Positions 37,749-54,038 of a stretch of 57,797 nt of DNA are shown here, in pieces; the stretch's first letter is position 1; each line of letters starts with the position of its first letter. Position numbers and translations under genes: made by a program. The notes beneath the pieces were generated by a model. The model had not been told where the DNA came from and did not search any database. It worked only from the letters and a program-made list of their open reading frames with translations. Source of the DNA: Neptuniibacter caesariensis. Its GTDB lineage: Bacteria > Pseudomonadota > Gammaproteobacteria > Pseudomonadales > Balneatricaceae. The DNA is taken from the NCBI RefSeq assembly GCF_000153345.1, contig NZ_CH724125.1, forward strand, positions 606,833 through 664,629, in the 5' to 3' direction.

Positions 37749-37770
37749 GAAGGGAACACTACTTCCCTTC
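37749..37770. terminator. Hairpin between convergent genes
   Basis: GAAGGGAA (37749-37756) and TTCCCTTC (37763-37770) are perfect complements around a 6-nt loop. The hairpin starts just after the secreted-protein stop and includes the PcaC-like stop codon. It is a likely bidirectional transcription end, though without a long T-tract. Confidence 0.5.
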
Positions 37771-38139
37771 GTACTCTTCCAGCACTTCTTTAGCCGCACG
37801 AAACGCTTCCTGTGCAGCAGGTGCACCACAATAAACAATCGAATGCAGAAGGACTTCTTTGATCTCTTCCGGCGTACAGCCATTGTTTAACGCGCCACGG
37901 ACATGCCCCTTTAATTCGGTTGGTGCTTTCAAAGCAGCCAGCATGGCAATCGTTACTAGGGAGCGAGTACTACGCGGAAGCCCCTCACGTTGCCAGGTAC
38001 TACCCCAGGCGTGTTCATTGATCCAGTCCTGAAGATCCTGTGTGGTCTCATTGGTGTTGTCGATCGCCTTCTGGACGAACGCTTCGCCCATTACCTCTGT
38101 ACGCACTTTTAAGCCGTTATCGTAATCTTCTCTAGCCAT
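37759..38139 (-). CDS. Carboxymuconolactone decarboxylase family protein, PcaC-like
   Basis: The 126-residue protein follows the PcaC pattern: NGLKVRTEVMGEAFVQKA, EHAWGSTWQREGLPRSTRSL and GCTPEEIKEVLLHSIVYCG. In the protocatechuate branch PcaC decarboxylates 4-carboxymuconolactone. It lacks the CxxC of AhpD. No other pca gene lies in the window, although a MobA-like hydroxylase, which could make protocatechuate, lies 20 kb away. The reaction is therefore likely but not certain. Confidence 0.85.
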   Translation of the reverse strand: MAREDYDNGLKVRTEVMGEAFVQKAIDNTNETTQDLQDWINEHAWGSTWQREGLPRSTRSLVTIAMLAALKAPTELKGHVRGALNNGCTPEEIKEVLLHSIVYCGAPAAQEAFRAAKEVLEEYEGK

Positions 38140-40129: not shown

Positions 40130-40858
40130 ATGCCGTTACCCTACGATTTATACATTTTTGCTTTTATCATTGTTGCTTTCGCCTCTTTCATACAAAGCCT
40201 GGCAGGGATTGGGCTGGCATTAGTTGCTGCACCAATTCTCGTCATAATTGACGCAAGATTTCTCCCCGGTCCGATACTCACCCTCGGATGCTGTCTTTCA
40301 CTCTTAATGTCACTACGTCATCGAAAGTCCATTCAGCTGGGAAGAACTGCTATAGCGCTTTACGGCCGTATTCCTGGATCCCTTCTAGGGATAGTACTGT
40401 TGAGCCTTATACCGCAAAGCCTGATTTCATTAGGCTTTGCATTATTGATAATCTTATCGGTAGCAATCAGTTATCATCATATTAAGGTAGCGCCAACCAA
40501 TGAGAACTTACTTATTGCAGGTTTCTTTTCTGGCTTGATGGGGACGACAACATCTATAGGGGGCCCACCCATCGCTTTGGTCTATCAGAACAGTCGGGAG
40601 GAAATTGTTCGGGCGCAGTTAGGCTTTTATTTTTTGATAGGTACAAGCTTGTCCATCATTATGCTGTTGATCTCCGGAAACTATTCTTTAAAACAGATAG
40701 AGCTTACCCTGCCTTTAATTCCAGCAACACTAGTAGGGTTCAAGCTTTCAGAAATATTCTGTAATAGTATGAACAGCGCTCAAATAAAACTATATATAGC
40801 GTTTATTTCTATCAGTTCATGTTTGGTTATTATTTATCGGGAGATCCTCTCCTTTTAA
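40130..40858 (+). CDS. TauE/SafE (TSUP) family permease
   Basis: The 242-residue protein has seven or eight membrane segments and the TSUP repeats (FASFIQSLAGIGLALVAAPI; AGFFSGLMGTTTSIGGPPIA). It may move sulphite or a small organic anion. It is convergent with the MFS gene, whose stop lies eight bases past its own. It differs clearly from the TSUP permease at 9598. Whether it belongs to the neighbouring catabolic region is unknown. Confidence 0.85.
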   Translation: MPLPYDLYIFAFIIVAFASFIQSLAGIGLALVAAPILVIIDARFLPGPILTLGCCLSLLMSLRHRKSIQLGRTAIALYGRIPGSLLGIVLLSLIPQSLISLGFALLIILSVAISYHHIKVAPTNENLLIAGFFSGLMGTTTSIGGPPIALVYQNSREEIVRAQLGFYFLIGTSLSIIMLLISGNYSLKQIELTLPLIPATLVGFKLSEIFCNSMNSAQIKLYIAFISISSCLVIIYREILSF

Positions 40859-40866
40859 TCCATACC

Positions 40867-42114
40867 CTAACTGTCACTTGTTATCCTTGATTCTTCAGGC
40901 GCCATCTCTACCACCGCTCCGGTAACAGCCCCTCCCTGCATCACAAAATGAGTCTGCTCTTCAACAGGAAGCGCAGGTCGCATCTTGATTCTATAAATAA
41001 CAAAAACAGCCAAGAGAAGTTGAGTTACTGCCAGACAATAGAACAGGCCTGCACTGCCCACCCATTCCATAACCAGTGAAGCGCTATAAGGACCGACAAC
41101 CCCTCCGAAAGCAAAAGCCAACACCATGCATCCCATTGCGGCAACTAATTGATCTTTTTCCAACTTATCAAAGGTTTCACTGAGGCTAAGAGGATAGGTA
41201 CAGGCAATAATTCCACAACTTAACGCTGTAGTTATGAATAACCCAGTAAGGTTCTCCATTTCAGCAAACCAGGTAGCCGCAACACAACTTACTGCAGACA
41301 CTGACAACAGAGAAAATAATACCGTTCGCCGATCATATTTATCTGATAAAAACCCTACCGGGAATTGCAATAAGAAAGCCCCGAGAATTGCCACACCCAT
41401 ATACAATGAAAGTTGAAAATCAACAATACTGTTTTCATTGGCAAACACTGGCAATAAATTAAAAATGGCCGCGTAAATACTACCTGCGACCAAACAACTC
41501 ACAACGCCCAGAGGGGAGATCCGATACAGAGCCAACAGTGAAATAGATTTTGCCTCTTCAATACGCGGGCCTTTATGTTTACTCAGGGCGATGGGGATAA
41601 CAGCCAAGCATAGTAAAATACCTCCGATAACAAATAGCTTAGATTCTTCTGGTTCGGCCAGATTCATAAAGAATTGCCCGGCGAACAACCCTGCAAGCAT
41701 AGTTGCATTGTAGACAGCCAGTACACGGCCACGGTTCGAAGGCGTTGTGCGATCACTTAGCCAGCTTTCCATTGCAGAAAATGCGCTGGCATTACAAAAG
41801 CCCAACACCATCCGCATGCAACCCCAGAGATAAATATCCTCATGCAAACTGCATATCAGAATACTGACTGCACCTATAGAGACACAACCTGCGAACATAC
41901 GAATGTGTCCAGCGCGGATGATCAGTTTTTTACTGTATATTGCGCCTACTAACACCCCGACAAAATACAGAGACTGCACAAAACCTATACTGTCGGTATC
42001 AAACTCTTCTAGCGCCATCCGCACAGGCATCAGAACGTTAATTAAGCCGTTAGCTGTCAACAAAATAAAGCAGCTTATAAACAACGAGATCAACGAAAAC
42101 AGTGTTGCGCGCAT
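40867..42114 (-). CDS. MFS transporter, YcaD-like
   Basis: The protein has about 415 residues with twelve predicted membrane segments. MFS features include the loop after helix 2 (SKKLIIRAGHIRMFAG) and its repeat in the second half (GFLSDKYDRRTVLFS). The overall pattern resembles the YcaD group of efflux permeases. The start is set at ATG 42114; TTG 42126 is an upstream alternative. An intrinsic terminator separates it from the ridA operon, so it probably has its own promoter even though it lies just downstream. Confidence 0.85.
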   Translation of the reverse strand: MRATLFSLISLFISCFILLTANGLINVLMPVRMALEEFDTDSIGFVQSLYFVGVLVGAIYSKKLIIRAGHIRMFAGCVSIGAVSILICSLHEDIYLWGCMRMVLGFCNASAFSAMESWLSDRTTPSNRGRVLAVYNATMLAGLFAGQFFMNLAEPEESKLFVIGGILLCLAVIPIALSKHKGPRIEEAKSISLLALYRISPLGVVSCLVAGSIYAAIFNLLPVFANENSIVDFQLSLYMGVAILGAFLLQFPVGFLSDKYDRRTVLFSLLSVSAVSCVAATWFAEMENLTGLFITTALSCGIIACTYPLSLSETFDKLEKDQLVAAMGCMVLAFAFGGVVGPYSASLVMEWVGSAGLFYCLAVTQLLLAVFVIYRIKMRPALPVEEQTHFVMQGGAVTGAVVEMAPEESRITSDS

Positions 42115-42150
42115 AATAAGCACCAATCGTTCAGGGGTAGTAATTGCAAA

Positions 42151-42176
42151 GAAAAAGCCAACAGATCCTGTTGGCT
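42151..42176 (-). terminator. Intrinsic terminator after ridA
   Basis: On the minus strand AGCCAACAG pairs with CTGTTGGCT across a 3-nt loop and is followed by TTTTTC. It lies 25 bp past the ridA stop and marks the end of the aldehyde dehydrogenase-dipeptidase-BCCT-RidA transcript. Confidence 0.85.
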
Positions 42177-42201
42177 ATCAGATAGAAAAGGGTAAGTTCG
42201 G

Positions 42202-42582
42202 TTAGCTGTTAGGAACTACAGCGTAAGCAACAATCTCACATAGCATCTCTTCACGCGCCAGACCTGCAACAACCATAGCTGCACGATTTGGATAAGGCGC
42301 GTCAAAATACTCGGCGTACACCTTGTTGAATACCGGCAGTTGATCACGATCCGTCACATAGATGAGTACTTGGGTAACTGCATCCATAGTAAGCTCGGCA
42401 GATTCGATGGTATGTTTAAAATTCTCCATAGTCTGACGGGCCTGAGCTTCAATTCCACCCTCTACTACCTTTCCTTCTGCATCAATTGGTATCTGAGCTG
42501 TAGACAGCTGGCCATTGGCAACAACAGCCCATTCTAGTGGTGCTTTAGAGGCAAAAAGATCAGTTTTAATCGCTTTTTTCAT
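42202..42582 (-). CDS. RidA family enamine/imine deaminase
   Basis: The 126-residue trimeric-type RidA protein has the substrate-binding Arg100 in YPNRAAMVV and Glu116 in MLCEIVAYA, matching the active RidA subgroup. RidA enzymes hydrolyse reactive enamine/imine intermediates to keto acids and ammonia. It is the last gene of the ALDH-dipeptidase-BCCT operon, 71 bp after the BCCT stop, suggesting the pathway yields an imine or enamine. Confidence 0.92.
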   Translation of the reverse strand: MKKAIKTDLFASKAPLEWAVVANGQLSTAQIPIDAEGKVVEGGIEAQARQTMENFKHTIESAELTMDAVTQVLIYVTDRDQLPVFNKVYAEYFDAPYPNRAAMVVAGLAREEMLCEIVAYAVVPNS

Positions 42583-42609
42583 AACAGTTCACTTTTGTAA
42601 CAGAGAAAG

Positions 42610-42627
42610 GAGCGGCCGAGGCCGCTC
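42610..42627 (-). terminator. GC-rich intercistronic hairpin between BCCT and ridA
   Basis: GAGCGGCC and GGCCGCTC form a perfect 8-bp stem with a 2-nt spacer. On the minus strand it is followed by CTTTCTC rather than a pure T-run. It may attenuate transcription into ridA or protect the upstream mRNA. Confidence 0.45.
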
Positions 42628-42653
42628 AGTTGAATGGGAAGTAGATACCAGGA

Positions 42654-44237
42654 TTACAGCCCTTGATCGTCAGCCATCTTTCTGGCGATCTGTGGTGCGG
42701 TCCAAAGAGATGGCAGCAATACCAGAGATACAGGAACAGCGGTTACCACAATGAAAGATTGCAGCGCAGAGATACCCCCGGAGCCAATCGATATCAGTAG
42801 TGCCGCAACGACCCCCATCATTACACCCCAGAACACGCGCACTGAGCTTTTTGGATGATCAGTACCCGTCATTACCATGGACACTGCATAGGTCATGGAG
42901 TCACCGGTAGTGGCTACAAAGATCGTTGTCAAAATCAGGAACAGCACTGAAATTACAAACCCTAAAGGCAGCTGTTCAGTGATAGCCAGTAGTGCAGCAG
43001 GCAGATTGAAACCAGTGAAAGGCTCAGAGATCACTCCTGGATTCGCCAGTTCAAATGCCAGTCCACTACCGCCAACAATGGTGAACCAGAAGCAGGTGAT
43101 AATGGGTGCAACAATGGAGATCAGCAGAACCATTTCACGGATCGTACGTCCTTTAGAGATTCGCGCTACAAACATTGCCATCAGCGGGCCATAGCCCAGG
43201 AACCAGCCCCAGAAGAATACAGTCCACCAATCCAACCAGCCTGGATTAGCGCGGAATGTTGCCATTGGAATAAACTGGTCGAGGTAGATACCAAAGCCAT
43301 GCAGGTAACCATCAATAATGAACCCGGTTGGACCGAAGAACAGAATGAATGCCATTAAACAAAAAGCCAGGAAAACATTGGCACGGCTAAGAATCTGAAT
43401 ACCCTTTGTTACACCACTCACCGCAGAAATAGTGTAGATGCCAATAAGGACACCGAGGATCGCTAACTGGGTAGTATAGGTGTTGGCAATACCGAACAAT
43501 TTCTCAAGGCCAAAGCTTACCTGCAGGCCAAGAAACCCGATCGGTCCTACAGTACCCGCTACCACTGCCAGCACACAGCTCGCGTCAACTATAGCGCCTA
43601 ACGGGCCGGTCATCACCTTATCGCCAAACACCGGATAAAGCAGAGTGCGTGGTTTCAGTGGCAAACCTTTTTCATAGTGCAGGTACATAAATACAATACC
43701 TGTCAGGCTCCCCAAGATCGCCCATGCCAGAAACCCCCAGTGCATAAAGCTTTGCGCCAGCGCGTTATATGCCGCTTCAGGGGTGCCTGCTTCGGTTCCC
43801 GCAAACAGAGGGGGAGACGATGTAAAGTGAGCCATTGGCTCTGCAGCAGCCCAGAACACGCCACCACCTGCAAGCAGTGTACACATGATGACTGAGATCC
43901 ACTGGAAGGTAGGCATTTCTGGGGTTTTGATTCCACCAAGGACAACCGAACCAGTACGCCCCACGGTAAGGAAAAGGCCAATGACAAACGTAAGTAGCAA
44001 CAGTACCTGCCAATAGGCACCGAAGTATTTTGTCGAAGTTGCAAAGGCGGTATTAACCCAGCCCGAAACCATTTCAATGTCATACAAGGCGAAAATAGCA
44101 AACAGCAAAAGTGCACCACCGCTGATAAACAGCACCGGCAAATCAACTCCTGCCAAGTATTTGCTATCTGACATGTTCGCCTCTTCTTGATTTTTAAGCT
44201 GCGTTTCAGGAACTGCAGCTTGCAGAGTATCACTCAT
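42654..44237 (-). CDS. BCCT-family transporter with altered aromatic box
   Basis: The 527-residue protein has twelve predicted membrane segments and the BCCT landmarks GGGVFWAAAEPMAHF (about 124-138) and FVARISKGRTIREM. BCCT carriers import betaine, choline, carnitine or related zwitterions. In the substrate box the usual paired Trp (W-W-x-x-W) is WGWFLGYGP (343-351): Trp345 remains, but the next Trp is Phe346 and the later one Tyr349. The ligand may therefore not be a classic trimethylammonium compound. An AGGAG site supports ATG 44237. Third gene of its operon. Confidence 0.92.
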   Translation of the reverse strand: MSDTLQAAVPETQLKNQEEANMSDSKYLAGVDLPVLFISGGALLLFAIFALYDIEMVSGWVNTAFATSTKYFGAYWQVLLLLTFVIGLFLTVGRTGSVVLGGIKTPEMPTFQWISVIMCTLLAGGGVFWAAAEPMAHFTSSPPLFAGTEAGTPEAAYNALAQSFMHWGFLAWAILGSLTGIVFMYLHYEKGLPLKPRTLLYPVFGDKVMTGPLGAIVDASCVLAVVAGTVGPIGFLGLQVSFGLEKLFGIANTYTTQLAILGVLIGIYTISAVSGVTKGIQILSRANVFLAFCLMAFILFFGPTGFIIDGYLHGFGIYLDQFIPMATFRANPGWLDWWTVFFWGWFLGYGPLMAMFVARISKGRTIREMVLLISIVAPIITCFWFTIVGGSGLAFELANPGVISEPFTGFNLPAALLAITEQLPLGFVISVLFLILTTIFVATTGDSMTYAVSMVMTGTDHPKSSVRVFWGVMMGVVAALLISIGSGGISALQSFIVVTAVPVSLVLLPSLWTAPQIARKMADDQGL

Positions 44238-44335
44238 TTTAGTTCTCCTGACGGGTCTTTATATTTATTTGTTATCAGGCAAATCAGTAGAACTGACTAA
44301 TCCTAGTTAATCAGTTCTACAAACATTGTCATTGC

Positions 44336-45343
44336 TTAAGACTCTTGCTTTGGCTTCAGCCCCTCATCAAGGAAATTAAGCCAGTTCAACCCCATGATTT
44401 TGGCTACATCTTCATTACTGAAGCCTCGCTCGACTAAACCACGGGTTAAATTTGGGAAATCTCGGCTATCGCGGAACCAGCTCAGGGGACGTGGCCAGTC
44501 AGCATTCGACTTAGAGCCTTCACCGTAATCCATGTCCTTAGACCAGCGACCGTTACGCATCCATTCGAGTACAGATAGAGGTTGCTCCTGACAAAGATCG
44601 GTACCTATTCCGATCCGATCGATGCCCATCATGTCGGCAGTGCCGGCAACCATGTCGCAGAAATCTTCTAAAGTGCAATCCGGGCCGTTTTTCAAATGAA
44701 ACGGATAAAGGCTGAAACCTAACAAACCACCGGATTCACCCAGAGCTTTTAATACCTTGTCAGACTTATTACGCTTTGCTGCATGGAAGCTCAAAGGGTT
44801 TGCGTGAGAGATAACAATTGGGCGTTCCGATATCTCGATCGCTTCAAGCGTGCTGCGCTCACCACTGTGGCTCATATCCACAATCATGCCGACTCGGTTC
44901 ATCTCTTTAATGGCCTGGCGACCAAAACGGGTCACACCACTGTCTTCCGCCTCATAACAACCACAAGCTAATAAGCTTTGATTGTTATAAGTCAGTTGCA
45001 TAATCATCAGATTCAGCTCACGCATCACCTCGACCATGCCAATATCGTCCTCAATGGGTGAACAGTTCTGAGCACCAAACATGATGCCAACCTTGCCCAG
45101 CTGTTTTGCCAGCCTAATATCCGCAGCACTTTTTACCGGCATAATCAAATCACTGTTCATTTCAAAGTGACGATTCCATTCGGCAATGCGCATTAGCGTT
45201 TCACGGATCTGCTCGTGGTAAACAATGGTGGCATGCACCATCGTTACGCCCCCCTCCCGGAGCTGCTCGAAGATCTTCCGGTTCCAGTTCGAATACTGGA
45301 GGCCGTCGACTACGATCATCTCGTTATGTAATTCGTTATGCAT
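44336..45343 (-). CDS. M19 membrane-dipeptidase-like protein with missing metal ligands
   Basis: The 335-residue TIM-barrel amidohydrolase resembles the M19 dipeptidase-like protein encoded beside dimethylglycine catabolism genes in Pseudomonas. The expected HxD zinc motif is replaced: VVDGLQYSNW has Leu15 and Tyr17. The bridging Glu is Gln92 in GAQNC. His159 (DMSHSGERS), His180 (VISHANP) and the distal Asp (GIGTDLC) remain. A binuclear dipeptidase is therefore unlikely; one metal or a changed reaction is possible. It lies between the ALDH and BCCT genes in one operon. Confidence 0.88.
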   Translation of the reverse strand: MHNELHNEMIVVDGLQYSNWNRKIFEQLREGGVTMVHATIVYHEQIRETLMRIAEWNRHFEMNSDLIMPVKSAADIRLAKQLGKVGIMFGAQNCSPIEDDIGMVEVMRELNLMIMQLTYNNQSLLACGCYEAEDSGVTRFGRQAIKEMNRVGMIVDMSHSGERSTLEAIEISERPIVISHANPLSFHAAKRNKSDKVLKALGESGGLLGFSLYPFHLKNGPDCTLEDFCDMVAGTADMMGIDRIGIGTDLCQEQPLSVLEWMRNGRWSKDMDYGEGSKSNADWPRPLSWFRDSRDFPNLTRGLVERGFSNEDVAKIMGLNWLNFLDEGLKPKQES

Positions 45344-45378
45344 GACAATCTCTCCGTCTCAGCATTACAAAATTGTTG

Positions 45379-46824
45379 TTAGGCGCTGATATAGGTTGTC
45401 TTCACAACGGTGTAGAACTCTTTGGCATACGTACCCTGTTCTCGCGGGCCGAAGCTAGAATCTTTACGGCCACCAAAAGGAACGTGGTAGTCAGTCCCTG
45501 CTGTTGGCAGGTTAACCATCACACAACCAGTTTTGGCATTTCGTTTAAAGTCAGATGCGTGTTTCAGGGATTGCGTGCAGATACCACCAGTCAGACCAAA
45601 GTTAGTATCGTTCAGTGTTGCCAACGCTTCGTCGTAATCCTTTACCTTGATGACACACGCAATCGGCGCAAACGCTTCATCACGGTTAATCGTCATTGCA
45701 TTTGTAGTTTCGGTGAACAGTGCCGGTTGCATGAAGTAGCCCTCAGTCTCTTCATTAAGAACTTCACCGCCATATACCAGATTGCCACCTTCTTTCTTGG
45801 CCAGTTCCAGGTATTCCAGGTTCTGTTCCATCTGACGTGCATCAGCCACTGCACCGATATGAACCCCGGCTTTAAGTGGGTGCCCAACAACCAGCTTCTT
45901 CATACGCTCGACCATTGCTTCTACAAAACGATCGTGAATACCTTCTGTAACAATCAGTCGTGAGGACGCCGTACATTTCTGACCTGTACCGCCGTAAGCA
46001 CCGCCTACAGCACATTCAACAGCATTTTCAAGATCCGCATCATCCAGAACTACCAGAGCATTCTTACTGCCCATCTCAAGCTGGCATTTAACTAGGTTAA
46101 CCGCCGTTGCAGCAGCAACCTTGCGGCCAGTTTCCAACGAACCGGTAAAGGTCAGCGCATTAATATCACGGGAGTTAATCAGCACATCACCTACTTCTGC
46201 ACCAGGCCCCATAACCAGGTTAAAGGTACCCGCAGGCAGGTTTTGGCGAGATATAATTTCCGTTAGAGCCCAGGCTGATGCAGGGACCTGATTGGCAGGT
46301 TTCCAAACAATTGCATTACCAAAAGCCAGTGCAGGCGCGATCTTCCATGCACCTGTTGCAGTCGGAAAGTTCCAAGGTGTGATAATGCCCACAACACCAA
46401 CTGGCTCACGGCGAGTTTCAATCTCTATACCGGGACGAACAGAGTCAGCTGTTTCGCCCATCTGACGCAGAACTTCTGCTGCGTAGTAGTGAAAGAACTG
46501 ACCGGAGCGATATGTTTCACCCACTCCCTCTGCGAGAGTTTTGCCTTCTTCACGGGCCAGAATTTCACCTAATTCATCTTTACGTGCGATCAGCTCATCA
46601 CCAATCGCCATCAAAACAGAGTAACGTTGCTCCAGGCCACTCTTCTGCCATTCTTTCTGGCCCTCCTGCGCTGCAGCGATCGCAGCCTCAGTTTGCACCT
46701 TATCCGCCTGAGCATAATGACCGATCACATCGCTGGTATCGGCAGGGCTGATGTTTGCCACGCTGCCTTTACTACCTTCTACCCACTCACCTGCAATGTA
46801 ATTACGAAAAACTGAATCAGACAT
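45379..46824 (-). CDS. NAD(P)-dependent aldehyde dehydrogenase
   Basis: This 481-residue enzyme has the standard ALDH order: PWNFPTATGAWK with the active-site Asn, LEMGSKNALVVLDDADL with the general-base Glu, and GGTGQKCTASSRLIV with the catalytic Cys. The MGSKN variant resembles the 2-oxoglutarate-semialdehyde dehydrogenase branch (YcbD-like). That specificity is inference. It heads the operon, has a strong TAGGAGGT ribosome site, and is divergent from LysR. It should oxidise an aldehyde released from the imported substrate. Confidence 0.92.
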   Translation of the reverse strand: MSDSVFRNYIAGEWVEGSKGSVANISPADTSDVIGHYAQADKVQTEAAIAAAQEGQKEWQKSGLEQRYSVLMAIGDELIARKDELGEILAREEGKTLAEGVGETYRSGQFFHYYAAEVLRQMGETADSVRPGIEIETRREPVGVVGIITPWNFPTATGAWKIAPALAFGNAIVWKPANQVPASAWALTEIISRQNLPAGTFNLVMGPGAEVGDVLINSRDINALTFTGSLETGRKVAAATAVNLVKCQLEMGSKNALVVLDDADLENAVECAVGGAYGGTGQKCTASSRLIVTEGIHDRFVEAMVERMKKLVVGHPLKAGVHIGAVADARQMEQNLEYLELAKKEGGNLVYGGEVLNEETEGYFMQPALFTETTNAMTINRDEAFAPIACVIKVKDYDEALATLNDTNFGLTGGICTQSLKHASDFKRNAKTGCVMVNLPTAGTDYHVPFGGRKDSSFGPREQGTYAKEFYTVVKTTYISA

Positions 46825-46899
46825 ATCGACCTCCTAAAGTTGTTAATCACATCTTAGGGGGGAAGTTTGGATAATAAAAATTAATAATTAATATTTGAC

Positions 46900-46916
46900 G
46901 ATAAGGTTTTCTTATC
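46900..46916. promoter_or_regulatory. LysR operator GATAAG-N5-CTTATC, copy 1
   Basis: GATAAG at 46900-46905 and CTTATC at 46911-46916 are perfect complements, and the site contains the T-N11-A core expected for LysR proteins. It lies midway between the ALDH start (about 84 bp) and the LysR start (about 83 bp). An identical pair of half-sites occurs at 48000. Confidence 0.7.
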
Positions 46917-46990
46917 ACTATATTGGTACAGCGCTCAAACAACACCTTTGACCCCAATTCTGAAGATAAATAGAGCCATAGGAGATAATT

Positions 46991-47887
46991 ATGTTGCCTG
47001 AATTAAAGATCACTCAGTTGAGACATTTTGTTTGGGTAGCAGAACTGAAAGGCTTCCACCTTGCTGCAGAGAAAGCGCACCGCACACAACCGGCGATATC
47101 ACTTTCTATCAAGGATCTGGAAAATAAGCTGGGAGAGTCGCTGTTTGAAAAGCGAAACACCAAAACTACTAAAACTGAACTAACTCCTTTTGGTAAATCC
47201 TTTCTGCCCAAAGCCAAAGAACTAATCGAACACCACGATCGCATCGCTCAAGATATGACCTTACTGGCAGAACATAAAACAGGTCATCTGCGTCTAGCTT
47301 CCGTGCCCTCGATTGCAAGCAGAATGCTACCGGAGATCTTATCTAAGTTTGTTGAAAACGCCCCTAATCTTCATATCAGTTTCTTTGATGATAATGCCGG
47401 GGCAGTTTTAAAGATGGTGGAAAACAAGCAAGTGGACTTCGGGATAGCTAGCATGTGGGAAGCGGATGAACATAGTGATAAAACATTCACCCCGATATGG
47501 GAAGACCAGATTGGGGTAGTTTGCCGTAGCGACCACCCTTTAGCAGATAAATCTGAACTGCATTGGAAAGAGTTACGTGATCACCGCTTAATAAGTAACG
47601 GCACCTCTCGCCTGCTTCAGGAAACCGATGCTGCTCCCCTTCTGACATCATCACAGTTCTATATCTCTAATATGATTTCACTCATAGCTATGCTTGAACA
47701 GGGATTAGGCATCAGCACACTGCCCGGCTTTGCTTTCCCACAAGGCAACCCCAATTTGAGGTTCATCCCTTTAAAAGAACCGGATATTGTCCGCCAAATA
47801 GGGATTATCCAGATGAGCAATAAAAGCCTGACCCCCGCAGCAGAGTCCTTAATCCAGTTTATTCTAGACTCAACGGGTAAAGGCTAG
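46991..47887 (+). CDS. LysR-family regulator of the catabolic region
   Basis: The 298-residue LysR protein has the helix-turn-helix GFHLAAEKAHRTQPAISLSI and a typical effector domain (HLRLASVPSIASRMLPEIL, MLEQGLGISTLPGF). It is divergent from the ALDH-dipeptidase-BCCT-RidA operon and upstream of the 573-residue gene. The same inverted repeat lies in both promoter regions, so it is the obvious candidate activator of both. AGGAG before ATG 46991 fixes the start. Confidence 0.92.
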   Translation: MLPELKITQLRHFVWVAELKGFHLAAEKAHRTQPAISLSIKDLENKLGESLFEKRNTKTTKTELTPFGKSFLPKAKELIEHHDRIAQDMTLLAEHKTGHLRLASVPSIASRMLPEILSKFVENAPNLHISFFDDNAGAVLKMVENKQVDFGIASMWEADEHSDKTFTPIWEDQIGVVCRSDHPLADKSELHWKELRDHRLISNGTSRLLQETDAAPLLTSSQFYISNMISLIAMLEQGLGISTLPGFAFPQGNPNLRFIPLKEPDIVRQIGIIQMSNKSLTPAAESLIQFILDSTGKG

Positions 47888-48307
47888 CTGTCACCATTTC
47901 TAATAGAAGGCAAAAATGGACTATTTATTTTTTTAAAGCGATAGGTCCTGTAAACCCAGCGCCTCAAACCATAGAAAAAATAATACCTTCAGCACTATTG
48001 ATAAGTTTATCTTATCGAGCGATATAACCTTTTGATTTGTACGTTCTTAACTATTTTCCCATGATAAACGAGTCACTACGGTCGCTGACGTACTGTAGTT
48101 GATCATCAGGCTTCAGAAGCAGTCTGATTTGTTTACACCGGGTAACGGGTTAATACTTTAACCATACAGGTGTGGCTCTCTCTGTAGAAAACAACTAATG
48201 CGAAACCCGCAGAGAATCAGAGTTCGTTGGTTTCCACACATCTATGCTGTATCCGGGTTTCATACCGGCCATTTAAAAAAGATGTGTTGCAATAGAGGAT
48301 TATAATA
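47888..48307 (+). promoter_or_regulatory. 420-bp leader with LysR operator copy 2
   Basis: GATAAG-TTTAT-CTTATC at 48000-48016 repeats the operator at 46900. About 290 bp separate it from the ATG at 48308, so the transcript probably has a leader of roughly 200 nt or more. GAAACCCG (48202-48209) and CGGGTTTC (48254-48261) could fold into a long-looped stem in that leader. No open reading frame stands out. Confidence 0.55.
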
Positions 48308-50029
48308 ATGACAACACCTGCTGCTATCCTTACCTCACTCAGAGGTGATAATGCATTGCCACTCCGCCCTGCCAACCAAGTCATGGACCTGGAGCGCTTA
48401 GGTTCGTTGCACCAAAGCCGCTTAAGTTTTATGCGCACGCTGGTCCGTCGGATTATGAAAGAACGCTGGCAGATCACCCCAGCCGTGTTCCAACTGGATA
48501 AAGACGGCTACGGCACTGTTATCTATAAAATCAACGCCCCTCACGGGGTATTCAGCTTCGTACTTTTCTCAGATTATCTCTCTTCAGAAGAACGTAACGA
48601 CCGCGTTATCGCCACCAAGTGGGACCTGACCATGGCGCTTGTCGAAGGTGAAGTTGATGATGTCTACCTGGAAAAACTACGTCAGAACGTACCTAAACAA
48701 GAAGCAGGTCGAGTTGATTCGCGGGTGTTTGTTCTCTCAAGGGCCAACCGTAGTGCACGTAATTTTGATTATGTAGTCGAGCAGTTAGCACAGGGCAAAC
48801 AGCCGGATGCCGAACGAATTGCCAAAGTTGGCTATTTGTACCGTACTACTGCAGTTTACGGCAGCGGGAAATTAGGTATGGCTGACTGGGAAAAAGTACG
48901 CAGCAAATTCCCTGATTTTGCCCGCCCTTTTGCAGGTGAGATGTTTGTCTGCCTGATGTTACGCAATTTCAGCCTACTCCAGGCTGAGCATATTGCCAAA
49001 CACAAGTCCCCCGAGAACTTTGCCCCATTTGAGCCAGAGATCAAACGTTATTTTGGCATTGGCAACTCAACAGGGCTGGGCATGGCTCCTTATCTGGTTA
49101 ACCATCCATTGCTGATCAATCAGTGGGTAGAGATGCGAGAGCTGGCCCTGGCACGTGTCCGCGCTTTAGGACATATTGATGACAGTATCAAACAAGAATT
49201 CAATTGCTTAATTGATCGCAGCTACATACACACGGCTGAAACTGAAACTGAAGATGAGTGGCAGACGGATAATAACCAGAAGGTATTGCAGGACTTAACA
49301 TCATTGAAACAACACACGAATAATGGTTTCAGTGGCTGGGATGAGCTATTGCAATGGAGTGAGACTAACTGCTCCCTTCAAGGTCAGGAGATGCTAGTTT
49401 CTATCATGCTGGAACTCTACCCGGAACTGGTCGATGAACTTGAAGAGTTTCACAATGCTGACGAAGTCCTCGAACTGGATCCTCTGATGCCCCTTCAGGT
49501 ATTGAAACAAGTGATTGAAAGCCGTTATGACTGGGCGCTTGCTATTGATTTTACAGCTGAAGGCACACGTGAAACATGCTGGTATCGCTCCGAAGAGAAG
49601 ATGGAACCTCGTCTGGGTAGCGTCGCTGACCTGGAAGCGAAAGATAAGCAAATGGCACTCGGTGTCGGATACGCGGTACGTAAATGCTACAACCATCTCT
49701 GCGAGTATATGGACGAGCACGCCGATCACACCACCGCCCGCTTTATGGTTGCCCACCCTAAAATGCGTGGCATAGTACGACGTATTCAAAGCATGAACCG
49801 CTGCATCTATGGTGATATTCAAGCTAACTTGCTAGATAGAAACATCCTGCCGATGCACCTGCTGCGCTGTAAACTGGCCTTCTTTGGGGTAAGTAAGTTT
49901 GACCCGCGTTCTCGACTATGGGTACGTAATACCATGTTCCAGGGGGCCCCTTTACTCGAAGATATTGGCAAACCCTTTAACGATGACTGGTTCATGCCAC
50001 TGGCACCAAAACAGCAGGGAGTAAACTAA
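48308..50029 (+). CDS. 573-residue protein of unknown family
   Basis: I do not recognise this protein. It is soluble, with no signal peptide or membrane segment. The N-terminal 200 residues contain AGRVDSRVFVLSRANRSARN and a basic helix RLSFMRTLVRRIMKERWQ. The middle (320-400) is acidic and helical. The C-terminus has MRGIVRRIQSMNRCIYGDIQ and FGVSKFDPRSRLWVRNTMFQ. An AGAGGA ribosome site supports ATG 48308. It is translationally coupled (TAATG) to the DUF3726 gene, so the two products probably act together. The LysR operator upstream ties it to the ALDH-BCCT operon. Confidence 0.85.
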   Translation: MTTPAAILTSLRGDNALPLRPANQVMDLERLGSLHQSRLSFMRTLVRRIMKERWQITPAVFQLDKDGYGTVIYKINAPHGVFSFVLFSDYLSSEERNDRVIATKWDLTMALVEGEVDDVYLEKLRQNVPKQEAGRVDSRVFVLSRANRSARNFDYVVEQLAQGKQPDAERIAKVGYLYRTTAVYGSGKLGMADWEKVRSKFPDFARPFAGEMFVCLMLRNFSLLQAEHIAKHKSPENFAPFEPEIKRYFGIGNSTGLGMAPYLVNHPLLINQWVEMRELALARVRALGHIDDSIKQEFNCLIDRSYIHTAETETEDEWQTDNNQKVLQDLTSLKQHTNNGFSGWDELLQWSETNCSLQGQEMLVSIMLELYPELVDELEEFHNADEVLELDPLMPLQVLKQVIESRYDWALAIDFTAEGTRETCWYRSEEKMEPRLGSVADLEAKDKQMALGVGYAVRKCYNHLCEYMDEHADHTTARFMVAHPKMRGIVRRIQSMNRCIYGDIQANLLDRNILPMHLLRCKLAFFGVSKFDPRSRLWVRNTMFQGAPLLEDIGKPFNDDWFMPLAPKQQGVN

Positions 50030-50778
50030 TGAAAATATCCATGAATGAATTGAGTGCAGCCCTACGCCGCTGTTTTGAAGCTACCGGCTACTTCGTAGGT
50101 AATTACGAAGACGCTGCCAACATGATCCTTTGGCTGGAAAAGCATGGTTTAAAAGGGCTGGATGAATTAACCCGTGCTTTGCCCTTCATCAATACAGACA
50201 GTGATAAGCCACTGAGTAGCGTAGTTTATGAAGACAAGACCTCTGCCATCATTGATAGCCATGGCCGCAGCGCTCTCAACTGTATCGCAGCCTCAGTCGA
50301 TCTTGCTCATGCCAAGGCGCTGGAAAATGGCATAGCAACCGTTACCGTACATAACTGCCATAATCGTAAATTTATCCTTAAAGCTCTCACGGATTGTGGC
50401 CGCAGAGGAATTAGCGCTGCAGCATATTGGCAAAACGGCAGCCATGTTATTACAGAACATACTGCGGCGATAAAAGCCGGTGATCGCTACCCAAGTTACA
50501 GTGAAGCAACAACAGCCCTTGAGGTTAACGATTTAGATGCTCAGGCATTGACCATTATCTGTAGTTCACGGGTAGACCTGACCTCTTCATTGCAACATTC
50601 GAGAGGAAACTCCAATACCCTTGATGTATCTGCTGAAAAGGTAGCATCAAATAAAGAAGAAGCGGTTGCTAACGGTATCAACATTGATGATGAACTCTGG
50701 GGCGAGATAAACCGCCTAGGTACAGGCATTTTGGTCAGTTCCAGTGAGCAGTCCCGTTTAGGCGCAGGAGGGCGCTAA
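50029..50778 (+). CDS. DUF3726 protein, reduced Ldh2-like fold
   Basis: The 249-residue protein fits DUF3726. Its N-terminus (LSAALRRCFEATGYFVGNYEDAAN), middle (SALNCIAASVDLAHAKALENGIATVTVHNCH) and C-terminal GINIDDELWGEINRL ... SSEQSRLGAGGR resemble the malate/L-lactate/piperideine-2-carboxylate reductase (Ldh2) superfamily. It is about 100 residues shorter, and the usual SNH motif is replaced by NCHNRK. It may be a catalytically altered subunit. It overlaps the 573-residue gene by one base and is followed by an intrinsic terminator. Confidence 0.8.
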   Translation: MKISMNELSAALRRCFEATGYFVGNYEDAANMILWLEKHGLKGLDELTRALPFINTDSDKPLSSVVYEDKTSAIIDSHGRSALNCIAASVDLAHAKALENGIATVTVHNCHNRKFILKALTDCGRRGISAAAYWQNGSHVITEHTAAIKAGDRYPSYSEATTALEVNDLDAQALTIICSSRVDLTSSLQHSRGNSNTLDVSAEKVASNKEEAVANGINIDDELWGEINRLGTGILVSSSEQSRLGAGGR

Positions 50779-50834
50779 TCTATATCCACTAAACTTTGCG
50801 TCGACCTGCTAGCTTGCTTATTAGCTAGTTTATT

Positions 50835-50857
50835 GCCCCCGTCCCGGGGGCTTTTTT
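50835..50857 (+). terminator. Intrinsic terminator after the DUF3726 gene
   Basis: GCCCCC (50835-50840) and GGGGGC (50846-50851) form a GC stem followed by TTTTTT. It ends the two-gene transcript and separates it from fdhD. Confidence 0.92.
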
Positions 50858-50952
50858 AGAAAGGGTATATGGAGCGAAACTTCAGTTAACGGTTCAGCCA
50901 ACACCCGCTAGCCAGCTATTAAGGGTAGACTTTAACTAGTTATCATAAATTC

Positions 50953-51729
50953 ATGCAAAAAATGTGTAGCCAATCTAAATCTCACGCAATCGAAACACCT
51001 GTCAGCATTGCTATTAATGGGATAGCTCATGCAGTGATGATGGTTACCCCGACTAATCTGAAATACTATGCTGCCGGGTTTGCCTTCGCTGAAGGAATCG
51101 TTGATCACATTGAACAGATACGGGATATTACTATTCGTGAAGATTCCCACCAGATTAATAGCGCTGAACAAGACCTCAAGGTAAAAAGCCTGATCGTGGA
51201 TCTGCGCATTAGCCCCCGGCAATTTCATGAATACAAGAAAAGACAAAGTTTCAGGCGAGGGTTAACCAGTTGCGGGCTCTGTGGCAGTGCAGCGATAAGC
51301 GAAGCATTACCCGGCATTAACCCTCTTCACGAAACAAAGATTCCAACCTCTGACCTATTAATAAATGCCCATAAGAATATTAAATCATCTGCAGGCCTAC
51401 ACACTGCACAATTAATAGACCCTTCCGGCACCATATTAACTACGCAGGAAGATATCGGGCGGCATAATGCGTTAGATAAAGTGCTCGGCTTTGCGTTGTT
51501 TGAACAGCTCAAGCTAAGCCAGCACTTCGTAATATTAACCAGCCGCTGCAGCGTCGAGTTGGTACAAAAAGCAGCCAGAGCAGGACTCTCTACTCTGGTT
51601 AATCTCTCCAGCCCCAGCAATCTTGCGATAGATATGGCACAGCACTATAAATTAAACCTTATTCAGGTCACCCGCTCAGGGGAGATCAGGGTCTACACAC
51701 ATTCGAATTCTCTCGGGGGTGAACTATGA
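50953..51729 (+). CDS. fdhD: FdhD, sulphurtransferase for molybdoenzyme maturation
   Basis: The 258-residue protein has the FdhD motif SCGLCGSAAI (Cys107 and Cys110), the N-terminal ETPVSIAINGIAH and QEDIGRHNALDKVLG. FdhD transfers sulphur from IscS to the molybdenum cofactor of formate dehydrogenases. It overlaps the FdhF/YdeP gene by four bases (ATGA), so it is dedicated to that enzyme. No strong promoter was identified in the 95 bp after the preceding terminator. Confidence 0.95.
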   Translation: MQKMCSQSKSHAIETPVSIAINGIAHAVMMVTPTNLKYYAAGFAFAEGIVDHIEQIRDITIREDSHQINSAEQDLKVKSLIVDLRISPRQFHEYKKRQSFRRGLTSCGLCGSAAISEALPGINPLHETKIPTSDLLINAHKNIKSSAGLHTAQLIDPSGTILTTQEDIGRHNALDKVLGFALFEQLKLSQHFVILTSRCSVELVQKAARAGLSTLVNLSSPSNLAIDMAQHYKLNLIQVTRSGEIRVYTHSNSLGGEL

Positions 51730-54038
51730 AAAAGCAAAAGTCATCGAACAGCGACAGAGCAGAGATCCAGAAACCCTCTGATGATAAACCAGCTGGCGGT
51801 TGGGGCGCACTGCAAAGTACAACGACGCACCTCCTGCAAAGCAAGAATGCCGCGAAAAATATCAAAACCCTGCTTAATACCAACCAACACGATGGCTTTG
51901 ACTGCCCCGGATGCGCTTGGGGTGAAGAGAAAAACCCGAGCAGAATCCGTTTTTGTGAAAACGGGGCTAAAGCTGTTAACTGGGAAGCAACATCTAAGAA
52001 AGTTGATCGGACATTCTTCGCCAAGTACCAAGTGAGCTGGTTAAAACAACAAACCAACTACTATCTTGAATATCAGGGGCGGCTTTGTGAGCCCATGCGT
52101 TATGATGCTGACTCTGATAAATACTTACCGATCACATGGGATCAGGCATACAATTTAATTGCAGATCACCTTCACAACCTTCAACACCCTGATCAACTTG
52201 AACTCTATACCTCTGGCAGGGCCAGCAATGAAGCGGCTTACCTATACCAGCTGTTTGGCAGGATGTTTGGTACGAACAATTTCCCTGATTGCTCCAACAT
52301 GTGTCATGAAGCCAGTGGCGTCGCTCTTAGCAGTAGCATAGGAATCGGCAAAGGCACAGTAACTCTGGAAGACTTCGAACACGCTGATGCAATTTTTGTT
52401 TTCGGTCAGAACCCGGGCACTAATCATCCCCGCATGTTAGACACCTTGCGAGGAGCCATTAAGCGTGGTGCAAGCGTAGTCATATTTAACACCCTGAAAG
52501 AGCGTGGTCTTGAAAAATTTCAGCACCCACAAGATCCGATTGAAATGCTATCGAATAGTTCAACGACCATGAACTCGTTGTACTTTACCCCGCACCTTGG
52601 TGGAGATATGGCCATTATCCGCGGGATGGTAAAGGCTCTTTTGGAAAGAAGTGACTTTACACCCGACTCCGGCTTTCTATCCGAACACGCAACCGGTGTT
52701 GCCGATTACCTGAATACAGTTAAAGAAACAGACTGGAGCCAGATATGCGAGCAATCCGGTCTGGAGCAATCAGAGATAGAAACAGCGGCAGAGGTCTATG
52801 CAAAATCAAACCGGGTTATCAGCACCTGGGCTATGGGGCTAACGCAACATTTCCACTCTGTGGCCACGTTGCATGAACTGGTTAACTGGATGGCGCTCAA
52901 TGGGAATATAGGAAAAAAAGGGGCGGGGCTCTGCCCTGTCCGAGGTCACAGTAATGTTCAAGGTGACCGGACGATGGGAATTAATGAACGCCCTTCTGCA
53001 GACTTTCTTGATAGCCTTGAAGAGAGATTCGATTTTGATGCTCCGCGTAACCACGGCCATTCCACAGTAGAGGCCATAGAGGCGATGCGATCGGGTGAAA
53101 GTAAAGTATTTATTGGCCTTGGCGGTAATTTTGCTGCAGCCACACCAGATACCCCGGTAACAGAAAGCGCTTTGGCTAACTGTGATCTTACTGTACATAT
53201 CAGCACTAAACTCAATCGTTCTCATCTGATTACAGGTAAAGATGCGCTAATTCTGCCTTGCCTTGGCAGAACAGATATAGACCTTCAACAAAGTGGAGAG
53301 CAAAAAGTAACTGTAGAAGACTCTTTTAGCATGGTGCATGCATCTAAAGGAATTTTAGAGCCATTATCCAAGGAAATGCGTTCTGAACCAGATATTATCT
53401 GTGGAATCGCAGCCGCTTCTCTTGGCGAAGCCAAGGTGCCCTGGACAAGATTAGCAGAAGACTATTCGCTGGTACGTGATCTTATCGAAGATACTGTTTC
53501 AGGCTTCAATAACTTCAATCGTAAAATTGATCAGCCTGGTGGATTTTATCTGGGCAACAGTGCCCGTGAACGTATTTGGAAAACAGCTTCGGAAAAGCTG
53601 GCCTTCCACACTCATCAATTACCCACTGAAATTATTCCATTTTTGCCAGGTAGCAAACGCAGTAAAACCACATTAATACTGCAAACTATGCGATCCCACG
53701 ACCAATACAACACCACAATATACGGAATGAATGACCGTTATCGGGGTATCAAAAATGAACGGAAGGTAGTTTTTATAAACCCGGAAGATATCACCCGTCT
53801 AGGTTATGAAGCGGACCAGCGGGTTAGCTTGCGAGCACTATGGCACGACGAAAAGGTTAGAGAAATTCACGGTTTCAGACTTGTTCCCTACGATATCCCT
53901 ATCGGCAACATAGCGGCGTATTATCCGGAAACAAATCCGCTGATACCGCTAGATAGTTATGGGGAACAAAGTCGCACCCCTACGTCTAAAAGTATTGCTG
54001 TTGAACTATTTCCCTATCAATCCAACAAAATAGTCTGA
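51726..54038 (+). CDS. FdhF/YdeP-type molybdopterin oxidoreductase
   Basis: The 770-residue protein matches the FdhF/YdeP family: FDCPGCAWGE (Cys60, Cys63) with FCENGAKAVNWE (Cys77), DCSNMCHEASGVAL (Cys193-His194), GIGKGTVTLEDFEHAD and FGQNPGTNHPRM, then the C-terminal molybdopterin-guanine-dinucleotide domain with MRSHDQYNTTIYGMNDRYRG. Cys193 sits where formate dehydrogenases carry Cys or Sec. Formate oxidation is possible but not shown for YdeP-type proteins. The dedicated fdhD supports a sulphurated cofactor. No separate iron-sulphur or diaphorase subunit is encoded nearby. Confidence 0.92.
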   Translation: MKKQKSSNSDRAEIQKPSDDKPAGGWGALQSTTTHLLQSKNAAKNIKTLLNTNQHDGFDCPGCAWGEEKNPSRIRFCENGAKAVNWEATSKKVDRTFFAKYQVSWLKQQTNYYLEYQGRLCEPMRYDADSDKYLPITWDQAYNLIADHLHNLQHPDQLELYTSGRASNEAAYLYQLFGRMFGTNNFPDCSNMCHEASGVALSSSIGIGKGTVTLEDFEHADAIFVFGQNPGTNHPRMLDTLRGAIKRGASVVIFNTLKERGLEKFQHPQDPIEMLSNSSTTMNSLYFTPHLGGDMAIIRGMVKALLERSDFTPDSGFLSEHATGVADYLNTVKETDWSQICEQSGLEQSEIETAAEVYAKSNRVISTWAMGLTQHFHSVATLHELVNWMALNGNIGKKGAGLCPVRGHSNVQGDRTMGINERPSADFLDSLEERFDFDAPRNHGHSTVEAIEAMRSGESKVFIGLGGNFAAATPDTPVTESALANCDLTVHISTKLNRSHLITGKDALILPCLGRTDIDLQQSGEQKVTVEDSFSMVHASKGILEPLSKEMRSEPDIICGIAAASLGEAKVPWTRLAEDYSLVRDLIEDTVSGFNNFNRKIDQPGGFYLGNSARERIWKTASEKLAFHTHQLPTEIIPFLPGSKRSKTTLILQTMRSHDQYNTTIYGMNDRYRGIKNERKVVFINPEDITRLGYEADQRVSLRALWHDEKVREIHGFRLVPYDIPIGNIAAYYPETNPLIPLDSYGEQSRTPTSKSIAVELFPYQSNKIV

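Follow-up and report, generated by a model that had tools for sequence, protein, structure and literature searches.

Two like operators and one LysR-type regulator point to a probable single split system for the catabolism of an N-methyl zwitterion in Neptuniibacter caesariensis

The genome of Neptuniibacter caesariensis carries, within a stretch of 57,797 nucleotides (contig NZ_CH724125.1, positions 606,833 to 664,629; hereafter the window), two divergent gene units next to a gene for a LysR-type regulator, and the same inverted repeat, GATAAG-N5-CTTATC, lies before each of them. This arrangement raises the question whether both units form one regulon and, if so, which compound they serve to degrade. 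A joint LysR regulon acting as a single functional system is well supported by sequence comparison, and we consider it rather probable that LysR uses the two operators to run the catabolism of an N-methyl zwitterion via both units, homarine being the most likely substrate. The gene content given in an earlier note on this DNA agrees with our Pfam and NCBIfam scans. The central features, in window coordinates, are:

42202..42582, minus strand: RidA-type enamine/imine deaminase (Pfam Ribonuc_L-PSP)
42654..44237, minus strand: BCCT importer (Pfam BCCT, 1.9e-151)
44336..45343, minus strand: M19-family hydrolase; its clade lacks the first metal motif of the family (Pfam Peptidase_M19, 2.8e-81)
45379..46824, minus strand: aldehyde dehydrogenase, ALDH (Pfam and NCBIfam)
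46900..46916: putative operator 1, GATAAG-N5-CTTATC, between the ALDH gene and lysR
46991..47887, plus strand: LysR-type regulator (Pfam HTH_1 and LysR_substrate)
48000..48016: putative operator 2, GATAAG-N5-CTTATC, between lysR and ORF573, heading the split-off unit
48308..50029, plus strand: ORF573, 573 amino acids, assigned to no known family; candidate for the main subunit in the first step of the catabolism
50029..50778, plus strand: DUF3726 protein, predicted to have an Ldh_2 (YiaK/AllD/DpkA) fold in shortened form; candidate partner of ORF573

The regulator has the helix-turn-helix and substrate-binding domains of a LysR-type protein, and a T-N11-A dyad is located between it and its divergent target. 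A search of the whole genome (3,924,755 bases) confirmed the two exact sites with T-N11-A core (T3, A15) reported in the earlier note, and they are the only exact ones. Ten more places differ by one mismatch, and a control pattern read backward occurs at five places with at most one mismatch. Site 1 is overlapped by a sigma-70-like match (46895-46924), one of four in the stretch against 3.3 expected.

Relatives of ORF573 were found at 48 loci of the genome collection, in Gammaproteobacteria by title and mostly in marine genera, and the genes of both units keep its company: DUF3726 is present at all 48 loci, ALDH and M19 at 46 each, BCCT and LysR (at least 60% identity) at 43 each, and RidA at 38. 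The divergent split layout is seen at 43 of the 48, a one-strand layout at three (L044, L045 and L051, from SAR92/Porticoccaceae), and two loci, L019 and L020 (the latter on a short contig), are without the left unit. Beyond this first scan, ALDH and ORF573 lie on the same strand at 36 of 38 ALDH-type loci. In SAR92, Phaeobacter, Rhodobacterales, Mesorhizobium and others, ALDH, M19, ORF573 and DUF3726 run along one strand.

Conservation of the sites in relatives, which the earlier note had proposed as a check, was found for both. Site 1 has zero, one or two mismatches in 20, 20 and 4 of 44 rows (43 split loci and the window), so that all 44 are within two mismatches, and in 40 of them its distance to the start of ALDH is 75-79 bases. 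For site 2, scored in 46 rows (45 loci and the window, one-strand loci excluded), zero, one, two or three mismatches were counted in 16, 26, 3 and 1 rows; 45 of 46 are thus within two mismatches, and the lone miss is L019, one of the loci without the left unit. Equal-length random stretches from the same loci reached this level in 37 of 2200 draws for site 1 and 127 of 2300 for site 2, the real sites being included in these draws. The arms are nearly invariant and the spacers variable, with 25 and 31 distinct words at the two sites. At L007, L018 and L052 the distance from lysR to ORF573 has grown to 1.8-3.2 kb, yet site 2 is still found 244-376 bases before ORF573.

The two units might instead be independent, their operators being alike by chance or local duplication. 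For this speaks that sites with up to two mismatches number three in the window, a count reached by 49 of 100 shuffles and thus at chance level, and that 27 of 57 genomes, that of the window among them, have at least one exact match (holders of the cassette not told apart), against 3 of 57 for the control pattern. The evidence for the operators is therefore the exact pair together with its position and conservation, not the word by itself. Chance or duplication would hardly keep the pair in nearly all loci while the spacers vary, nor hold site 2 beside ORF573 when the latter is far from lysR. It would also not explain the one-strand loci: L101, L102 and L103 have a site before ALDH (0, 2 and 1 mismatches) and none within 450 bases before ORF573, and L100 has none before either gene. 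The split locus on a Pseudomonas plasmid (L058) has both sites, each with one mismatch. Because split loci, L058 too, have site 2 and the one-strand loci L101-L103 only the ALDH site, putative operator 2 accompanies the splitting of the unit. On conservation and layout we reject independent units as very improbable. Since synteny, operator conservation and the one-strand layouts of other lineages agree, the single regulon proposed in the earlier note stands to the extent that sequence alone can tell, with LysR presumed to bind both sites.

Further genes lie on both flanks, of which the earlier note had drawn fdhD and the FdhF/YdeP gene into the picture:

40130..40858, plus strand: TauE/SafE-family permease, linked component (Pfam TauE, 4.2e-21)
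40867..42126, minus strand: MFS transporter, peripheral (Pfam MFS_1)
50953..51729, plus strand: FdhD, optional neighbour (TIGR00129)
51726..54038, plus strand: FdhF/YdeP molybdoenzyme, optional neighbour, possible formate oxidation (TIGR01701)

A core widened by these neighbours is weakened by the 48 loci, where MFS is found at seven, FdhD at four and FdhF at three, and the distribution rules out all three as core genes. The TauE/SafE gene, which the note had overlooked, is commoner, with a homologue on one flank or the other at 36 of the 48 loci; its part in the system is left undefined here. Just beyond the region, a gene of the carboxymuconolactone-decarboxylase family (37759-38139) has no match in the 48 loci at 1e-10. 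An Rfam scan of the window gave no match, and one BKACE-family gene is present elsewhere in the Neptuniibacter genome.

On the ORF573 tree, the cassettes of L010, L018, L023 and L027 (Thalassotalea, Colwellia, Pseudoalteromonas and another gammaproteobacterium) nest beside that of the window; they share its TauE-MFS-RidA flank, three of them also with FdhF. Horizontal transfer of the whole block among these cassettes and that of the window appears likely. At the Oceanisphaera/Oceanimonas-type loci L033, L034, L041, L047 and L048 the cassette lies near genes that we take to be cinA-like and alaS-like, with a presumably recA-like gene close by at four of the five and also at L028. Because other genera show other neighbours, the comparison suggests that the cassette spread as a block.

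Which chemistry the proteins perform was approached by family, motif and structure comparison. ORF573 has no Pfam or NCBIfam match and no sequence match in the PDB; its AlphaFold model (predicted local distance difference test, pLDDT, 76) found no convincing structural match, nor did the viral fold library, a missing match being no proof of a new fold. The structure alignments covered 34 of 47 ORF573 and 35 of 47 DUF3726 locus proteins plus those of the window, and the reductase alignment 17 proteins. As ORF573 and DUF3726 are fused into one protein of 814 amino acids in Mesorhizobium sp. 131-2-1 (L056:9962-12406), they may form a stable complex. The fold predicted for DUF3726 is that of Ldh_2 in shortened form, aligning over 191-223 residues of Ldh_2-fold chains of 313-361 residues. 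This falls short of the complete fold, and no His of DUF3726 was aligned with what we take to be the catalytic Ser-His of Ldh_2 (alignment probability 25%).

The M19 protein is recognised as a member of its family (2.8e-81), and His159, His180 and Asp249 are kept in 121 of 121 sequences. At the first metal motif its clade has DGLQY (of 122 sequences, 121 have the Leu and 117 the Tyr) and not the His-x-Asp that presumably provides the first metal ligands of renal dipeptidase. RidA belongs to the RidA family, with Glu116 in 56 of 56 sequences and Arg100, which we assume to be the catalytic Arg, in 50. For ALDH the best NCBIfam model is alpha-ketoglutaric semialdehyde dehydrogenase, below cut-off (485.5 bits, cut-off 770); muconate-semialdehyde dehydrogenases (TIGR03216; PDB 4i1w) match as well, although not best. 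The nearest solved structure was dropped as a guide to the ALDH substrate, being not discriminating.

A further pattern concerns RidA and an Ldh_2 reductase. The ALDH-type loci compared for it number 84 and comprise 46 of the first scan, 9 on plasmids, and 18 and 11 of two genome samples; we searched within 9 kb of ORF573 with thresholds of 50% identity for ALDH, 30% and 40 bits for RidA, and 35% and 90 bits for Ldh_2. RidA alone was found at 53 loci, an Ldh_2 reductase alone at 20, neither at 11 and both at none (Fisher p 8e-12, uncorrected for kinship); at the 44 loci without ALDH the corresponding numbers are 3, 13, 28 and 0. On a tree of 85 ORF573 rows, made by a quick method with long branches flagged, the RidA/Ldh_2 label changes at least six times, five of the changes being forced by starred branches: the reductase is present in the gammaproteobacterial Aliamphritea (L050), and RidA appears among reductase-type kin in L057 (Sulfitobacter), L110, L114 and L121. 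For the Ldh_2 protein tested, that of Roseateles (L063), the nearest solved relative is delta1-piperideine-2-carboxylate reductase (PDB 1wtj; 6e-51 versus 2.5e-35 for the next), by its name an imine reductase. Because RidA and the Ldh_2 reductase never co-occur in the 84 loci and have been swapped at least five to six times, we favour as the simplest interpretation that one imine serves both, RidA hydrolysing it and the DpkA-like reductase reducing it. RidA could also be a general detoxifier of reactive by-products with no step in the pathway, a role that is common for RidA proteins; the alternation with an imine reductase would then hardly be expected, and we regard this explanation as unlikely. 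If the swap is true, RidA would stand out here as a central enzyme of the pathway, deciding whether the nitrogen ends up in methylamine or in N-methylglutamate.

All 11 reductase-type genomes compared have a full-length protein of SoxA/MgdC type, which exceeds the family cut-off in 10 of them; such proteins are also present in 4 of 11 RidA-type genomes and in 5 of 7 with neither gene. In the window genome a Sox/MgdC-type query protein from Phaeobacter gave only partial matches of 27-29% and thus no clear Mgd-type dehydrogenase, and no Ldh_2 other than DUF3726 was found; both are as expected for the RidA version. RidA may bypass the need for an Mgd-type dehydrogenase, which need not sit in the operon. 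The Roseateles operon (L063) is surrounded by Sox-type genes, a betaine-type ABC transporter, purU and folD.

Gene content, synteny, operators and mutual exclusion are observed; on them we base a model whose chemical steps, substrate and regulator binding are proposals. The LysR-type regulator would sense the imported N-methylated zwitterion or an early product and, through the two like operators, activate both units, ALDH-M19-BCCT-RidA on one side and ORF573-DUF3726 on the other. BCCT would take up the compound, and ORF573 with its Ldh_2-like partner DUF3726 would perform the first step, a ring opening or dearomatisation. ALDH would then oxidise the resulting semialdehyde, the M19-type enzyme would hydrolyse a C-N or amide bond, and RidA would hydrolyse the imine, releasing an amine and a keto acid. 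Where relatives have a DpkA-like reductase in place of RidA, the imine would become an N-methyl amino acid, on which a Sox/Mgd-type oxidase would act. Of the elements named in the earlier note, the importer for a zwitterion, the aldehyde intermediate and the two uncharacterised proteins are supported, and the imine is probable.

With homarine (N-methylpicolinate), an alkaloid of sea water, as the most likely substrate, the window version would yield methylamine and 2-oxoglutarate, and the reductase version N-methylglutamate. In the latter product the carboxyl carbon of homarine and ring carbons C2-C5 would be retained and C6 lost. If the ring is split between C5 and C6, an N-formyl-N-methyl semialdehyde would arise, which ALDH would convert to the acid; M19 would take off the formyl group and leave the imine to RidA or the reductase. 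FdhF, in the window and at the three other loci, and purU/folD in Roseateles would fit disposal of the C1 unit, though they are optional.

The ALDH matches allow another course, in which hydrolytic opening yields 2-(methylamino)muconate semialdehyde, ALDH oxidises it and RidA deaminates the product as in the 2-aminomuconate route, C6 not being lost as formate. It would account for the match to muconate-semialdehyde dehydrogenases, and 2-aminomuconate deaminase belongs to the RidA superfamily. It is doubtful, as the muconate models are not the best matches of ALDH, M19 is left without a clear role and no N-methylglutamate is made. A different N-methyl heterocycle or cyclic betaine might also take the place of homarine within the same single regulon. 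BCCT and glycine-betaine-type ABC transporters presumably carry many betaines, and the M19-ORF573-DUF3726 trio is found without ALDH in other clusters and in soil isolates. An N-methyl-iminoglutarate node would suit the best ALDH model as well as the DpkA-like reductase and the Sox-type neighbours, and Mgd is tied to homarine in PMC13390433; none of these is specific proof, and we judge another zwitterion to be a real, if somewhat unlikely, possibility.

Beyond the first scan, ORF573 relatives are present on 168 plasmid records and, counting that of the window, in 29 of 398 Pseudomonadota genomes. They also occur in 53 of the 385 genomes compared from the class to which G115 belongs; the operon proteins of G115 share 88-98% identity with their Phaeobacter counterparts. 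We examined 11 plasmid neighbourhoods, two of them without annotation, and all 28 non-window Pseudomonadota genomes (32 regions); of the 53 genomes in the class of G115, 37 were newly examined, 6 were already in the set and 10, mostly partial matches, were left out. Across 128 loci in all, M19 is near ORF573 at 121 and DUF3726 at 122. Operons of LysR with ALDH, M19, BCCT, ORF573 and DUF3726 are found in Phaeobacter, Sulfitobacter and, split, Pseudomonas, and in Aminobacter, Roseateles and Pararhizobium an Ldh_2 gene and a glycine-betaine-type ABC transporter follow DUF3726. Four of the G115-class genomes are 1.2-1.4 Mb in size, with 28-36% G+C at the locus. Two of them (L177 and L179) carry the ALDH-type operon together with Ldh_2 and a betaine-type ABC transporter, the other two (L191 and L195) the M19-ORF573-DUF3726 trio only. 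If the model is true, the protein family of these Pseudomonadota and G115-class genomes gains a function, and a way is suggested in which marine gammaproteobacteria feed on a nitrogen-containing osmolyte common in plankton.

Besides the motif counts above, several findings weigh against the model. In LysR-ALDH gaps of up to 600 bases beyond the close relatives (longer gaps, among them Vibrio-type ones, were left out), a GATAAG site within two mismatches is present in 4 of 27 (L058 and L101-L103) and absent from 23, SAR92 included; the alpha- and betaproteobacterial operons scanned have none, so that the putative GATAAG operator is lineage-bound. Eleven of the 84 ALDH-type loci have neither RidA nor Ldh_2 within 9 kb, three of them (L005, L107 and L185) on cut contigs. 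The SoxA/Mgd association is confounded with class and weak by itself, the RidA-type genomes that have these proteins being three of a Phaeobacter-like group and G046. A search of the window's own genome with TIGR03105, which we take to be the family closest to GmaS (methylamine use), gave four matches, none over cut-off, and a methylamine route via such a protein was dropped. No fold or motif of ORF573 names its chemistry, and ORF573 is without ALDH at 44 of the 128 loci; the core is therefore not tied to one substrate.

These data leave room for a broader idea, which we put forward tentatively and with less confidence than the model itself. ORF573, DUF3726 and the remodelled M19 could be an unnamed three-protein machine that opens N-alkylated rings, ORF573 being a new enzyme family and DUF3726 a dehydrogenase shell that lacks part of its fold and serves the first step. 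Such a core could be plugged into several pathways, with or without ALDH and with different transporters and regulators, the imine exit of the ALDH-type pathway being interchangeably hydrolytic (RidA) or reductive (DpkA-like).

In Sinorhizobium meliloti (L061:9944-13390) and Variovorax (L065:9941-13437) a paralogous ORF573-like/DUF3726-like/M19 trio lies beside an IclR-type regulator, and in S. meliloti the genes that follow encode an ABC transporter, an aminotransferase, an SSADH and two RidA proteins. For the Ldh_2 gene after DUF3726 in Phaeobacter inhibens DSM 17395 (L055:14402-15375) the match is broken into two overlapping parts and no coding sequence is listed, the plasmid gene table being incomplete; an intact copy is present in its relative L122. 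In Aliamphritea spongicola (L050:8655-13637) the matches of LysR, ORF573 and Ldh_2 each fall into two pieces, indicating gene decay or sequencing error.

Whether the system is undescribed, as the earlier note assumed, is doubtful. According to PMC13390433, Mgd participates in homarine catabolism, and for a conserved homarine pathway it refers to Ferrer-Gonzalez et al. 2026 (Nat Microbiol 11:1531); among the matches listed in our literature search this citation was the only trace of it, no homarine operon being described. According to two further papers, Ruegeria pomeroyi draws down homarine rapidly (PMC12817926) and no confirmed homarine transporter is known in it (PMC9723723). The search found no mention of DUF3726 and, among the matches listed, nothing useful on trigonelline.

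Trigonelline, an N-methylpyridinium carboxylate, is degraded in Acinetobacter baylyi by TgnABCDE through ring opening and aldehyde oxidation under a LysR-type regulator. The system proposed for the window is alike in all these respects; unlike Tgn it has ORF573 and DUF3726, and the flavin reductase/monooxygenase TgnA/TgnB is not among the ten window proteins scanned. With Rieske-type demethylation of glycine betaine and stachydrine it shares import by BCCT, and ring-hydroxylating dioxygenase genes lie near the operon in Phaeobacter L055 and Pseudomonas L058. In line with the earlier note, no Rieske oxygenase is among the same ten proteins, to which this search was confined. The DpkA-type reductase is related to the Ldh_2 of L063, which occupies the place that RidA has at other loci, and its fold is also the one predicted, in shortened form, for DUF3726.

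The homarine pathway is reportedly encoded by an operon homABCDER of five structural genes and a regulator, leads to N-methylglutamate and is said to occur in Rhodobacterales, SAR11, SAR116 and streamlined marine lineages. A gene set that may resemble this description is seen in Phaeobacter and small genomes of the same class, where LysR stands with ALDH, M19, ORF573 and DUF3726 plus Ldh_2 and/or a transporter. The window system differs in that it is split, has two putative operators and RidA instead of the reductase, and its genome gives only partial Sox/Mgd-type matches. The pathway may be already published, and if the Hom genes are these, it is known; added here are the two-operator split regulon, the alternation of RidA and reductase, the ORF573-DUF3726-M19 core, the fusion and predicted fold of ORF573-DUF3726, and a wider family without ALDH, for example in Sinorhizobium and Variovorax.

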